DNA of 64,000 nucleotides, taken from assembly GCA_902769255.1 (NCBI GenBank), contig CACXOM010000002.1:124001-188000 (forward strand). Reading direction: 5' to 3'. Positions within the stretch are counted from its first letter, which is position 1; every line of letters begins with the position of its first letter. The DNA is from Oscillospiraceae bacterium. Its GTDB lineage: Bacteria; Bacillota; Clostridia; Oscillospirales; Acutalibacteraceae. Position numbers and translations under genes: made by a program. Under the pieces are notes generated by a model. That model saw only the letters and a list, made by a program, of their open reading frames with translations. It made no database searches and was not told the DNA's origin. Positions 22,298 through 37,072 of the stretch are shown in pieces.

Positions 22298-23536
22298 ATG
22301 GTTAAAAAATTAATTATTTTTGCTTTTGTTTTTGCTTTTTCTTTGAATCTACTTGTTTTAGCAGATGAAAATAACAGCAAATATCAAGATGAAAATGTAA
22401 AAAATGTTGTTACTGAATATTATTCACCTGACCTTTACGATGATATTGTAAATACTTCGGCAAATGTTAGAAATAATATTGAAATTAATGCAAAATCTGC
22501 GGTTTTAATGGAAAAATCAACAGGTAAAATTATTTTTAAAAAGAATGAGAATGAAAGGGTATCACCGGCATCAATTACTAAAATTATGACAATGCTTTTG
22601 GTAATTGAAGCGATAGAAAGCAAAAAAATATCCTTTTATGATAAAGTGACCGCATCTGAACACGCCGCATCAATGGGCGGTTCTCAAATTTGGCTTAAAG
22701 TCGGGGAGAGAATGAGTGTTCACGACTTGCTAAAATCGGTTGCAGTAGGCTCTGCAAATGACGCATCTGTAGCATTAGCCGAAAAAGTCGCAGGCAGCGA
22801 AGAGGCTTTTGTTGCAAAAATGAACCAAAAAGCCAAAGAATTAGGTATGAAAAATACAAATTTTACCAATGCTTGCGGATTAGATGACGATAATTTATAC
22901 ACCAGCGCAAAAGATGTTGCAATTATGTCAAAAGCGTTGATTTCGCACGAATTAATCAAGCAATATACGACAATTTGGTTAGATACTGTGAGAAATGAAA
23001 CTGTGCAACTTGTAAATACCAATAAATTGGTAAGATTTTACAAAGGGGCGACAGGCTTAAAAACGGGGACTACCAATAGAGCAGGGTGTTGCTTAAGCGC
23101 AACCGCTAAAAGAGGCGGTATGGAACTGATTGCGGTTATAATGGGGGCCGAAAATTCAAAAGAAAGATTTTCGCAGGCCAAAAAATTACTTGACTTTGGT
23201 TTTGCAAATCTATTCATTTATAAGCCATCAAAATCAGTTAAAATTAAAAATAATTTAAGGTTAGCAAAGGGACAGAAAAACTCTGTTAAAATTAAATGTA
23301 ATAAAATAGAGAATGAATTACTTGATTTAAACAGAAAAGGTAACATTAGAGTAAATGTTAGTTATAAGAATAATTTGCAAGCGCCGATAATAAAAGGTGA
23401 AGTTTTAGGAAATGTTGCAGTAGAAGACGGCAACAAACCTTTTAGAACATATGATATTTACGCTGATGAAACTGTTGAAAAGGCAAATTTCAAATTTAAT
23501 TTGTTAAGATTGTTAAAGGGAACTATAATTTTGTAA
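22298..23536 (+). CDS. D-alanyl-D-alanine carboxypeptidase (DacF-like, PBP5 family)
   Basis: Trims the terminal D-Ala of peptidoglycan stem peptides, acting outside the membrane. The 412 residues start with a signal peptide (about 1-22, ends LVLADE). All penicillin-binding motifs are intact: SITK (about Ser92/Lys95), SAN (Ser152, Asn154) and KTG (about 255-257). A C-terminal PBP5-type beta domain follows from about 310. The class includes sporulation-specific DacF, which would suit this spore former, but the role (vegetative or sporulation) cannot be told. Confidence 0.93.
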   Translation: MVKKLIIFAFVFAFSLNLLVLADENNSKYQDENVKNVVTEYYSPDLYDDIVNTSANVRNNIEINAKSAVLMEKSTGKIIFKKNENERVSPASITKIMTMLLVIEAIESKKISFYDKVTASEHAASMGGSQIWLKVGERMSVHDLLKSVAVGSANDASVALAEKVAGSEEAFVAKMNQKAKELGMKNTNFTNACGLDDDNLYTSAKDVAIMSKALISHELIKQYTTIWLDTVRNETVQLVNTNKLVRFYKGATGLKTGTTNRAGCCLSATAKRGGMELIAVIMGAENSKERFSQAKKLLDFGFANLFIYKPSKSVKIKNNLRLAKGQKNSVKIKCNKIENELLDLNRKGNIRVNVSYKNNLQAPIIKGEVLGNVAVEDGNKPFRTYDIYADETVEKANFKFNLLRLLKGTIIL

Positions 23537-23555: not shown

Positions 23556-23585
23556 AACTTCGTATAATCAATATTATACGAAGTT
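23556..23585. repeat. loxP/dif-like palindrome upstream of a tyrosine recombinase
   Basis: Two perfect 13-bp inverted arms, AACTTCGTATAAT (23556-23568) and its complement (23573-23585), flank a 4-bp centre CAAT. Read as a Xer site it has 11-bp arms ACTTCGTATAA and TTATACGAAGT around 6 bp. Read as a lox-type site it has the inner 11 bp of both phage P1 loxP arms (AACTTCGTATA) around exactly 8 bp. It lies 72 bp upstream of the recombinase start. A recombination target (dif or similar) or an autoregulatory operator are both possible. Confidence 0.75.
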
Positions 23586-23657
23586 CGGGGTAAGGAAATT
23601 TAAGGATATTAGTAAATATAGTGAAAATAATATAAAATAGAGGAATTTTAAAGAATT

Positions 23658-24638
23658 ATGACTTTTAGAGACTCACCGCCTATTATTAAAGATTATATTA
23701 ATTACATAAGAACTGTTAAAGGTAAATCTGATAAAACTGCTGACAATTATTTTAGAGATTTACATTTGTTCTTTCGTTTTATAAAATTTCATAAAGGTTT
23801 AACTGACGGCACAAAAACTATTGAAGAAATTGATATTTCTGATATTGATGCAAAACTTCTAAAATCTATTACTTTTGATGATGTAAACGAATTTATTTTT
23901 TATTTACATTCAGACCGTAACAACAACGAAAAATCACGTGCAAGAAGGATTTCTGCCCTGCGGTCGTTTTTTAGATTTTACACTATAAATAAACCAATTA
24001 TTTCCATTAATCCTGTTGAGGAACTTGAATCACCAAAAATTAGGAAAAGTTTACCAAAATATCTTACTTTAGAAGAAAGCATTAAATTGTTAAATGCTGT
24101 TGACGGTCAGTTTAAAGAGCGTAATTTTGCTATAATTACCTTGTTTTTAAACTGTGGTTTACGTTTATCGGAACTTTGTTCAATAAATATTAACGATTTA
24201 AACTTTGAAGAGCGTATTTTTAAAGTCAGAGGTAAAGGAAATAAAGAGCGAATAGTTTATTTAAATGACGCTTGCGTTAGCGCTTTACAAGACTATTTAA
24301 AGGTTAGATTCGCAATGACTTCTAAAGAAAAAGATGCTTTGTTTATAAGCCGAAACGACAAGCGAATTAATCCTCGTTCGGTTGAGTTAATGGTAAATAA
24401 CACGCTTAAAAAAGCCGGGCTTTCAGGTCAAGGTTACACCGTTCATAAACTTCGGCACACCGCTGCTACGCTTATGTATCAGCATGGAAATGTTGATATT
24501 AGAGTGTTGCAGCAGGTTTTGGGGCATGAAAATTTAGGTACAACCGAAATCTATACTCATTTATCAAGTTCACAACTGAAAAAAGCGTCGGAATCAAATC
24601 CGCTTGCTAATATTAAACAAAGCCGTACTGATGAATAA
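23658..24638 (+). CDS. Tyrosine recombinase, XerC/XerD type
   Basis: Site-specific tyrosine recombinase. The 326 residues have a SAM-like N-terminal core-binding domain (about 8-115). The catalytic set is complete: Arg169 (CGLRLSEL), Lys193 (RGKGNKER), His263-x-x-Arg266 (HKLRHTAATLM), His290 (LGHENLGTT) and nucleophile Tyr299 (IYTHLS). It is slightly longer than usual Xer (about 300), with an insert near 45-65. A TATAAA -10-like box is at 23631-23636; the ribosome site is weak. The adjacent palindrome makes this a candidate XerC, or a dedicated recombinase for that site. A second Xer gene lies at 36185-37072. Confidence 0.92.
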   Translation: MTFRDSPPIIKDYINYIRTVKGKSDKTADNYFRDLHLFFRFIKFHKGLTDGTKTIEEIDISDIDAKLLKSITFDDVNEFIFYLHSDRNNNEKSRARRISALRSFFRFYTINKPIISINPVEELESPKIRKSLPKYLTLEESIKLLNAVDGQFKERNFAIITLFLNCGLRLSELCSININDLNFEERIFKVRGKGNKERIVYLNDACVSALQDYLKVRFAMTSKEKDALFISRNDKRINPRSVELMVNNTLKKAGLSGQGYTVHKLRHTAATLMYQHGNVDIRVLQQVLGHENLGTTEIYTHLSSSQLKKASESNPLANIKQSRTDE

Positions 24639-24656: not shown

Positions 24657-25196
24657 TTATTGTTCCATCTGCTTGCCTAAAAAATCGGCTGCTACTATAC
24701 AAATTTTTTCGTCTGAATCGGTAACAGTTTTCTTGTTTTCGCTTTCTAAAACGCAAACAGCACCTAAGACATCACCACTTGAAATTATTGGAATAAAAAT
24801 CAGCGATTCTTTTTCAACACCCTCTAATGCAAACAATTCATCTTTGTTTTTGTTTGCATTATATTTTTCGCGGTTTTCTAACAATTCTTCTGCTTGAGGG
24901 GTAATTCTTCTCTCTAACACTTCCCTCTTTGAGATTCCCGAAGCGGCAATGCAATGGTCTCTGTCGAAAATTAGTGTTGTTAATCCTGTAGCTTTTGTTA
25001 TACTTTCGGAAATTTGATTGGCAAAATCTGCTAATTCACCAATTGGCGAATATTTTTTAAAAATAACTTCGCCACTGTTATCAGTATAAATTTCGAGCGG
25101 GTCTCCTTCCCTAATTCGCATTGTTCTTCTTATTTCTTTGGGTATTACTACCCTGCCCAAATCGTCTATTCTTCTTACTATTCCTGTTGCTTTCAT
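24657..25196 (-). CDS. spoVT: Stage V sporulation protein T (AbrB + GAF)
   Basis: Transcription regulator of forespore and germination genes. The 179 residues hold an N-terminal SpoVT/AbrB swapped-hairpin domain (about 1-50: ATGIVRRIDDLGRVVIPKEIRR) and a C-terminal GAF-like domain (about 55-179). An AAAGGAG site precedes the ATG. Its presence is direct evidence for a sporulation programme. It diverges from glmS and converges on the recombinase. Confidence 0.95.
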   Translation of the reverse strand: MKATGIVRRIDDLGRVVIPKEIRRTMRIREGDPLEIYTDNSGEVIFKKYSPIGELADFANQISESITKATGLTTLIFDRDHCIAASGISKREVLERRITPQAEELLENREKYNANKNKDELFALEGVEKESLIFIPIISSGDVLGAVCVLESENKKTVTDSDEKICIVAADFLGKQMEQ

Positions 25197-36184: not shown

Positions 36185-37072
36185 TTAAAGTCCTGCCTTC
36201 GGGTGAAATTTTGTATAAGAATTTTCGTATTTCTGCTTAATAATTTGAGAATAAATTTGTGTTGAAGAAACGCCGGCATGTCCAAGCATATCTTTAATAT
36301 CTTTAATTTTTGCGCCGTTTTCAAGCAAATGCGCAGCAAAAGAATGTCGCAAAGTATGCGGGGTGATAGTTTTTTCAATACCACCGCTTTCAGCGTAACC
36401 TTTAATAATTTTCCAAAATCCCTGTCGTGTCATTCTTGAGCCGTTCATATTAACAAAAAGTGCTTTTTCGCTCTTATTTGGAACTAATGCGCCTCGAACA
36501 TTGCCTAAATAGTTCTCTATTGATTTCATTGCGGTTTTATAAACCGGTACAATTCTTTCAGCTTTTTTAGAATGACAAATAACAATGTCAATTTGCAAAT
36601 TAATGTCATCAATATCAAGGTCAATAAGCTCTGAAACACGTAGCCCTGTTGCATAAAGTAGTTCAAGCATTGCTTTATCTCTGCAACCTCGCAAGGTTGA
36701 TACATTGGGTTGCGAAAATAAAATATCAATTTCTTTTTGAGTTAAAATTTCGGGTAATTTTGTTTGCTCTTTATGTAGTTTGATTTTAGCGGTAGGATTT
36801 GACTCAATACAACCGTTTTGTATTAAAAATTCGTAAAAACAGCGAATTGATGCTAAAACTCTAACTAAAGTGGATTGTGATTTTCCACTTCTTTTAAGCG
36901 AGTCGATAAATTTTTTGATATCTTCATCACTTGCTTTTTCAACATTAACCGAATTTACTTCTGCGTAGCGCAAAAAAGCCTTATTATCACGAACATAAGA
37001 CTCAATTGTACTTTTTGAAGATTTTTTCACCTGAGTTAAATACTCGGTAAATTCAGTTAAATAATCCCTCAT
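36185..37072 (-). CDS. xerD: Site-specific tyrosine recombinase XerD
   Basis: Tyrosine recombinase of chromosome-dimer resolution. 295 residues, the usual Xer length. Catalytic residues: Arg145 (TGLRVSELID), Lys169/170 (HSKKAERIV, where most Xer have GKGxKER), His239-x-x-Arg242 (HTLRHSFAAHLL), His265 (LGHAGVSST) and Tyr274 (QIYSQI, where THV is more usual). It follows a SpoIIM-like gene by 18 bp; spoIIM close to xerD is also seen in B. subtilis, which supports both calls. Confidence 0.93.
   Translation of the reverse strand: MRDYLTEFTEYLTQVKKSSKSTIESYVRDNKAFLRYAEVNSVNVEKASDEDIKKFIDSLKRSGKSQSTLVRVLASIRCFYEFLIQNGCIESNPTAKIKLHKEQTKLPEILTQKEIDILFSQPNVSTLRGCRDKAMLELLYATGLRVSELIDLDIDDINLQIDIVICHSKKAERIVPVYKTAMKSIENYLGNVRGALVPNKSEKALFVNMNGSRMTRQGFWKIIKGYAESGGIEKTITPHTLRHSFAAHLLENGAKIKDIKDMLGHAGVSSTQIYSQIIKQKYENSYTKFHPKAGL

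Follow-up and report, generated by a model that had tools for sequence, protein, structure and literature searches.

We conclude that a 30-bp palindrome in this genome is in all probability the chromosomal dif site of the bacterium, and that the Xer-type tyrosine recombinase encoded immediately downstream, here called P0001, is the enzyme that acts on it, very likely on both arms. This reading is built from sequence, and draws on the single copy of the palindrome, its linkage to the recombinase gene, its place at the GC-skew switch in several genomes, the symmetry of its arms, the asymmetry of its centre, the intact catalytic residues of the protein and the covariation of one of its residues with one base pair of the site. 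Consider a dimeric chromosome. Its two copies of dif would meet at the terminus, each arm would be bound by one protomer of P0001, with four protomers in the synapse, and strand exchange within the asymmetric centre would then yield chromosome monomers. From one species to the next the arms would drift jointly with residue 240 of the Xer protein, and they would remain mirror images while drifting because the same protein binds both. Binding, recombination, dimer resolution and control by FtsK are all predictions for this palindrome.

The palindrome and its neighbouring recombinase in the window

The original prediction, made from the letters of the window (the whole 64,000-nucleotide stretch of DNA that was analysed), described two perfect 13-bp arms around CAAT, both arms identical, 72 bp upstream of a complete tyrosine recombinase. 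All of this is borne out by direct reading: positions 23556-23585 are AACTTCGTATAAT-CAAT-ATTATACGAAGTT, the full 30-bp site AACTTCGTATAATCAATATTATACGAAGTT is a perfect inverted repeat around CAAT, 72 bp lie between its end and the ATG of the P0001 gene at 23658, and the open reading frame is intact. With up to three mismatches allowed, the assembly (1.79 Mb in 35 contigs) contains one copy. The features are collected in the table below.

Table. Features of the palindrome and its surroundings, in window coordinates.
Feature	Position	Strand	Basis
Dif-type recombination site (probable), 30 bp, perfect 13-bp inverted arms	23556..23585	.	window sequence, copy count, equivalent palindromes in relatives
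Left arm, AACTTCGTATAAT; position 6 (23561, C) is the putative specificity base pair	23556..23568	+	sequence, covariation
Asymmetric centre, CAAT; with flanking bases the putative crossover region	23569..23572	+	sequence
Right arm, ATTATACGAAGTT, reverse complement of the left arm	23573..23585	+	sequence
D-Ala-D-Ala carboxypeptidase-like gene; 19 bp between its end and the palindrome	22298..23536	+	ORF, family match
Xer recombinase P0001, 326 aa; R169, K193, H263, R266, H290 and Y299 intact	23658..24638	+	ORF, family models, alignment
Codon of Arg240; covaries with arm position 6; aligned with Cre Arg259	24375..24377	+	covariation, hhalign
Stage V sporulation protein T-like regulator	24657..25196	-	210.5 bits, below cut-off 235.9
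P0002, ortholog of XerD, 295 aa; 135 of 200 family genomes lack a strong match	36185..37072	-	profile matches, alignment, tree

The proposed likeness to loxP, at 12 and 11 positions of the two arms, also stands. The right half of lox in the phage P1 record reads ACAT-TATACGAAGTTAT, and the right arm in the window equals the P1 right repeat at 11 of 13 positions with the same spacing from the centre, being identical to P1 lox from base 5 to base 15 counting outward; with a left lox arm that we take to mirror the right one, 12 of 13 positions match. The suggested agreement with the 11-6-11 dif layout of Firmicutes is upheld in part, in that the layout fits, but a B. subtilis-type dif pattern matched none of 40 genomes, the window's own among them.

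Weak promoter-like hexamers overlap the palindrome (7 in a 500-bp stretch, against 3.5 expected by shuffling), and a single terminator-like match lies on its minus strand, with 13 pairs of which three are G-C, where the shuffle mean is 0.0. That match is the one point in favour of a transcription terminator or RNA hairpin between the two genes, a reading to which we assign a negligible probability, since the coding strand has no T-run, the palindrome is single-copy and located at the terminus, and its AT-rich core is conserved in relatives as sequence, beyond what pairing would demand (two of the core positions being fixed by the search).

P0001 scores slightly above the cut-off of the NCBIfam XerA-type model (228.6, cut-off 220) and far below those of the XerC model (TIGR02224; 237.3 against 335.15), the XerS model (NF003462; 159.7 against 267) and the XerD model. 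In a quick tree with no references besides E. coli XerC and XerD, one starred branch with support 99 unites 17 proteins of the P0001 type drawn from several clostridial families, and we regard the P0001 type as a distinct Xer clade that should carry its own name until tested. The gene is widespread, with one strong match each in 126 of the 147 genomes of the order and in 110 of its 118 good ones, and all 110 aligned relatives keep the six catalytic residues, whose roles follow known Xer motifs (for two of the six the count is 109, one row being truncated). A special closeness of P0001 to Cre was considered and dropped, as structural matching ranks Cre below XerA, XerH and lambda integrase.

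Two further observations concern other tyrosine recombinases. On another contig of the same genome (C12; L037:7300-14489), the gene of a 321-aa XerA-like tyrosine recombinase is surrounded by several incomplete ORFs for specificity subunits, in what by eye is a type I restriction-modification locus; it looks like a phase-variable, shuffling hsdS system. And the first 300 residues of PDB chain 9i5v_14, which is labelled ribosome-associated inhibitor RaiA, are an Xer-type tyrosine recombinase sequence, which may point to a mislabelled or a fused chain.

Sites in relatives and the replication terminus

Conservation in relatives gives a divided answer: equivalent palindromes are present and often perfect, but the exact arm sequence drifts. 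The window's own arms, with up to three mismatches, occur in 5 of 200 family genomes, and as a family-wide signature they had to be rejected; what looked like poor conservation arises because the arm sequence drifts, so that the site has to be searched for as a palindrome. The family is probably Acutalibacteraceae, judging by an exact match of coordinates between genome G127 and G203, which is the genome of the named Acutalibacter locus L087. Two sister species carry the palindrome unchanged, whereas a third (G003) differs in arm type. The sequence upstream of the orthologous gene holds palindromes of 12-6-12 build with species-variable arms, the commonest arm type in the host's family being AATTATACAAAAT, with AATTATACGAAAT in Thermoanaerobacter wiegelii, AATTGAACAAAAT in Oscillibacter and AACTTCGCTAAAT in Clostridium hydrogeniformans.

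Within 600 bp upstream of the gene, a site was detected in 67 of 110 orthologous loci and none in the other 43. All 12 pairs are symmetric in 44 of these sites, 11 in 10, 10 in 9 and 9 in 4, although the search, which required 9 or more pairs and an A at each of arm positions 11-12, in part favours symmetry by its design and could pass over asymmetric sites. The central four bases are palindromic in none of the 67. Identical arms and a directional centre are what a recombination site would need if it were bound by one kind of protomer. The palindromes are also more frequent than chance would give: with 11 or 12 of 12 pairs around a 6-bp gap, they occur within 350 bp upstream in 53 of 104 loci, against 18 of 1,040 dinucleotide shuffles (6 of the 110 loci were dropped for too short an upstream sequence). 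The 350 bp downstream of the gene also hold such palindromes in 18 of 101, but these are unrelated sequences, many of them terminator-like by eye.

At up to three mismatches, the family-type pattern is found in 119 of 200 family genomes and its backwards control in 3. The site is mostly single in relatives, as it is in the host, with exactly one match in 113 of the 119 and two or three in the remaining 6. It also stays beside the recombinase. Among the 67 genomes listed with both, it lies at most 1 kb upstream of the gene in 54, farther away on the same contig in 2 and on another contig in 11, the last perhaps partly through contig breaks. In 63 of the 67 detected sites the distance to the start is 22-267 bp, a spacing which, together with the overlapping promoter-like hexamers, would also suit a pure operator through which the recombinase regulates its own gene. 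We consider this very unlikely, since the site can lie downstream of the gene (804 bp in L139, a Peptoniphilus, and 1234 bp in L088), 734 to 2356 bp upstream of it (L138, L086 and L108) or, with the same reservation about contig breaks, on another contig, and since an operator alone would need neither the skew switch nor an asymmetric centre. The palindrome may nonetheless serve as an operator besides being dif.

Where skew is clear, the site lies at the GC-skew switch or close to it. In three single-contig genomes, G056, G154 and T. wiegelii, with 20-40 kb read around the site, it is separated from the local cumulative-skew maximum by 93, 103 and 898 bp, respectively. The T. wiegelii record begins with a DnaA-like motif; skew there turns from +0.229 over the 20 kb that precede the site to -0.167 over the 20 kb that follow it, the maximum being taken over 40 kb, and the other eight 20-kb samples are positive before the site and negative after it, with an exception at 2.4 Mb. 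Twenty 20-kb stretches of G056 make up one broad positive and one broad negative half; in G154 the signs are mixed elsewhere in the genome. Two genomes are weak or unclear in this respect: G105 has weak skew and a maximum about 2.6 kb from the site, and G010 has its maximum 12 kb away from the gene, with no family-type site in 8 of its 10 fetched stretches and one counted by the genome-wide pattern search. On the host's own contig (318,415 bp) the cumulative skew peaks at 137,581 and the site lies at 147,556, 10 kb from the maximum and at the edge of a roughly flat plateau from about 137 to 220 kb; owing to this plateau the test in the host is consistent with a terminus and not sharp. Within the window, GC skew flips sign repeatedly between 13000 and 52000, over some 40 kb that follow the window's cumulative maximum, and this stretch may be rearranged, unlike the sharp switch of T. 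wiegelii.

The original prediction had offered a chromosomal dif and a single-recombinase, lox-type system as separate readings, and single copy, skew switch and linkage to the recombinase support the two together. A lox- or phage-type attachment site of a mobile element, with no housekeeping role, has an even slimmer chance than an operator. The likeness to lox would fit it, as would three phage-like contigs with a family-type palindrome, in one of them demonstrably between the small and large terminase genes; against this, the site is identical in two sister species, the recombinase is carried by nearly all good genomes of the order, the location is that of the skew switch, and there is no phage gene among the family-matched genes of the window (2 of 10 matched none). 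The window's own arms had no match in viral contigs.

The three phage contigs are IMG/VR records with perfect palindromes of the family type at L297:6671-6700, L298:8207-8236 and L299:1199-1228. The position between the terminase genes is that in L298, and by ORF size also that in L297; in L299 an ORF of small-subunit size adjoins the palindrome. Two of the three records encode a tyrosine integrase. Such phages could exploit the host Xer protein or resolve their own dimers. A further contig classed as viral, L296, has a P0001-type gene and a convergent xerD beside its palindrome, and is probably bacterial DNA or a prophage flank.

Residue 240, arm position 6 and the second Xer protein

Protein columns were screened against arm positions for covariation over 62 gene-site pairs, with Cre not consulted, and, truncated-row artefacts aside, the best pair is residue 240 and arm position 6; the top raw signal, at arm position 13, was rejected because it came from one truncated row (L105). 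Over 63 loci, Arg240 goes with C at position 6 of both arms in 23 of 23, Lys240 with T or G in every one of 21 left arms and in all but one (L151) of the 21 right arms, Ser240 with A in 10 of 10, and Ala, Asp, Glu, Thr and Pro, pooled, with A in 6 of 6; Gln240 is mixed, its three loci having C, T or A. Reduced to Arg240 against C, the two are concordant in 62 of 63. Among 47 loci without an accepted upstream site, five have one elsewhere in the locus (with 10 of 12 pairs in one case), and all five obey the same rule. A site pattern picked out 30 loci, and the gene is present in 27, which include 4 or more repeats from the first set, the L224 site coming from the family-pattern search: Lys240 accompanies T or G in 20 of 20, and six Gln and one Glu accompany various bases, with C in L215 (one arm) and L222 (Glu, both arms).

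By parsimony the residue changed 9-12 times and the base 10-14 times, depending on how states are grouped, and the best tree yields 9 independent pairs but only 2 on well-supported branches, so that joint change of residue and base is suggestive, with too few pairs for significance. In an hhalign comparison R240 falls on Cre R259, weakly (probability 30.6%, E 0.00053, 20% identity over 158 columns), the residue that PMC7438526 describes as hydrogen-bonding the G of the corresponding base pair in loxP. This alignment of R240 with the Cre reader of that base pair is a likely reason for the lox-likeness of the palindrome. Taken together, these data are suggestive of an enzyme in which one DNA-reading residue usually matches its own site, and at the place where Cre reads loxP.

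The host genome holds two Xer genes, the P0001 type and, about 12 kb away in the window, xerD. In the quick tree the second protein, P0002, groups with 13 relatives (support 97), a set that in turn joins E. coli XerD (83, not starred). Of the catalytic residues, Arg-I, both His, Arg-II and Tyr are present in P0002. With these residues kept, and with 59 other family genomes also having both proteins, a two-recombinase reaction could operate here. Across 200 family genomes there are strong matches to the P0001 type in 160 and to XerD in 65: both in 60, the P0001 type only in 100, XerD only in 5 and neither in 35. Restricted to the 158 good genomes, 89 have the P0001 type only and 48 have both, so XerD lacks a strong match in 89 of the 137 good genomes with the P0001 type. 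The palindrome pattern is present in 48 of the 60 genomes with both proteins and in 69 of the 100 with the P0001 type alone.

XerD itself shows signs of decay in several lineages. In an alignment of 39 homologues (29 of the best matches in the family, plus 10 taken from other named genomes), Lys replaces the first catalytic Arg in 11, and Tyr or Asn replaces the His of HxxR in 6 and the following His in 2, with the Tyr retained in all 38 that are readable there. An apparent loss of the catalytic Lys was rejected, the hairpin being one residue shorter and the Lys one place on in most rows. In T. wiegelii, xerD (L245, 1279862-1280715) has an internal stop and spans two frames, which could be a natural loss or a sequencing error; the dif-linked xer is intact.

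These observations bear on the reading that we find hardest to set aside, though unlikely: that the palindrome is the dif of an ordinary two-recombinase system, with P0001 as XerC, P0002 as XerD, and symmetric arms that either protein can bind. The gene for XerD is near in the window, and in a number of relatives (for example G056, G174, G113 and G129) it lies close to the Xer gene and converges with it, its Tyr is universally kept where readable, and some sites in genomes with XerD, such as that of G053, are asymmetric. On the other side stand the 100 of 160 family genomes that have the P0001 type without a strong XerD match, most of them with the palindrome pattern; the degraded catalytic residues of XerD in several lineages and its interruption in T. 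wiegelii, where the site is intact at the switch; and arms that vary by species yet are usually mirror images, with no two half-site types, allowing for the symmetry built into the search. XerD seems dispensable in most of the family. Where it survives in Clostridia it may be kept for another job, and our best guess, by analogy, is the unloading of SMC, which B. subtilis XerD is described as performing at the terminus (PMC12322038, PMC13342612).

Known Xer systems

The wider picture, which we hold to be somewhat better than an even bet, is that much of Clostridia has a single-recombinase system of its own, in which this Xer clade and a perfectly palindromic dif have replaced XerC/XerD, XerD is decaying or has been repurposed, perhaps for SMC unloading, and the many gene-site pairs form a natural Cre-like set whose target can be partly read from residue 240. 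Should this be true, the XerCD picture would fail for a large part of Bacillota, and the question would arise of what XerD does once recombination is lost. There would also be a large natural panel of recombinase-target pairs, governed by a specificity rule that involves a single residue, can be tested and agrees with a key contact of Cre with loxP; such a panel would help in understanding how site-specific recombinases work and in engineering them.

In the XerCD/dif system of E. coli and B. subtilis, which shares with the present one a role in chromosome dimer resolution, predicted for the latter, and a 28-30 bp site at the terminus, two proteins act on two different arms, whereas here the arms are identical and one enzyme is conserved. 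An XerCD-based method predicted dif in 97 Firmicutes organisms (97.00%), as Kono 2011 states (PMC3025954), and those predictions may already include some of the present sites. Single-recombinase Xer systems are named, in the sources consulted, for streptococci and lactococci, for epsilon-proteobacteria, for archaea and, from 2022 on, for Legionellales; a literature search over titles and abstract openings found none described in Clostridia. The module proposed here would be a Clostridia-wide counterpart of XerS/difSL, XerH/difH and XerL, with binding and recombination predicted.

XerS/difSL resembles it in having one recombinase whose gene directly adjoins the site (as described in PMC5357621) and a site at the terminus (as described in PMC2731167). 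It differs in that difSL is 31 bp long with imperfect, unequal arms and an 11-bp centre, and in that XerS has 356 aa, where P0001 has 326 and falls under the XerS model cut-off. The arms of difH are likewise imperfect, at 11 and 10 bp in the account of PMC5357621, and XerH is a protein of 354-362 aa from another phylum, the epsilon-proteobacteria; the window palindrome is more symmetric than either difSL or difH. XerA/dif is archaeal, and most of its sites are placed by a review 122-144 degrees from oriC and not opposite it. Cre/loxP shares the fold, at the 20% identity given above for the aligned columns, but lox is phage-borne, whereas here a chromosomal pair is conserved across an order. 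XerL/dif of Legionellales also pairs one recombinase with a perfectly dyad-symmetric site, the uninterrupted arms of which are called unlike other dif sites in PMC9765430. According to the same paper, however, gene and site are more than 400 kb apart in L. pneumophila, which makes XerL an unlinked exception, and the arms are without homology to known Xer motifs.
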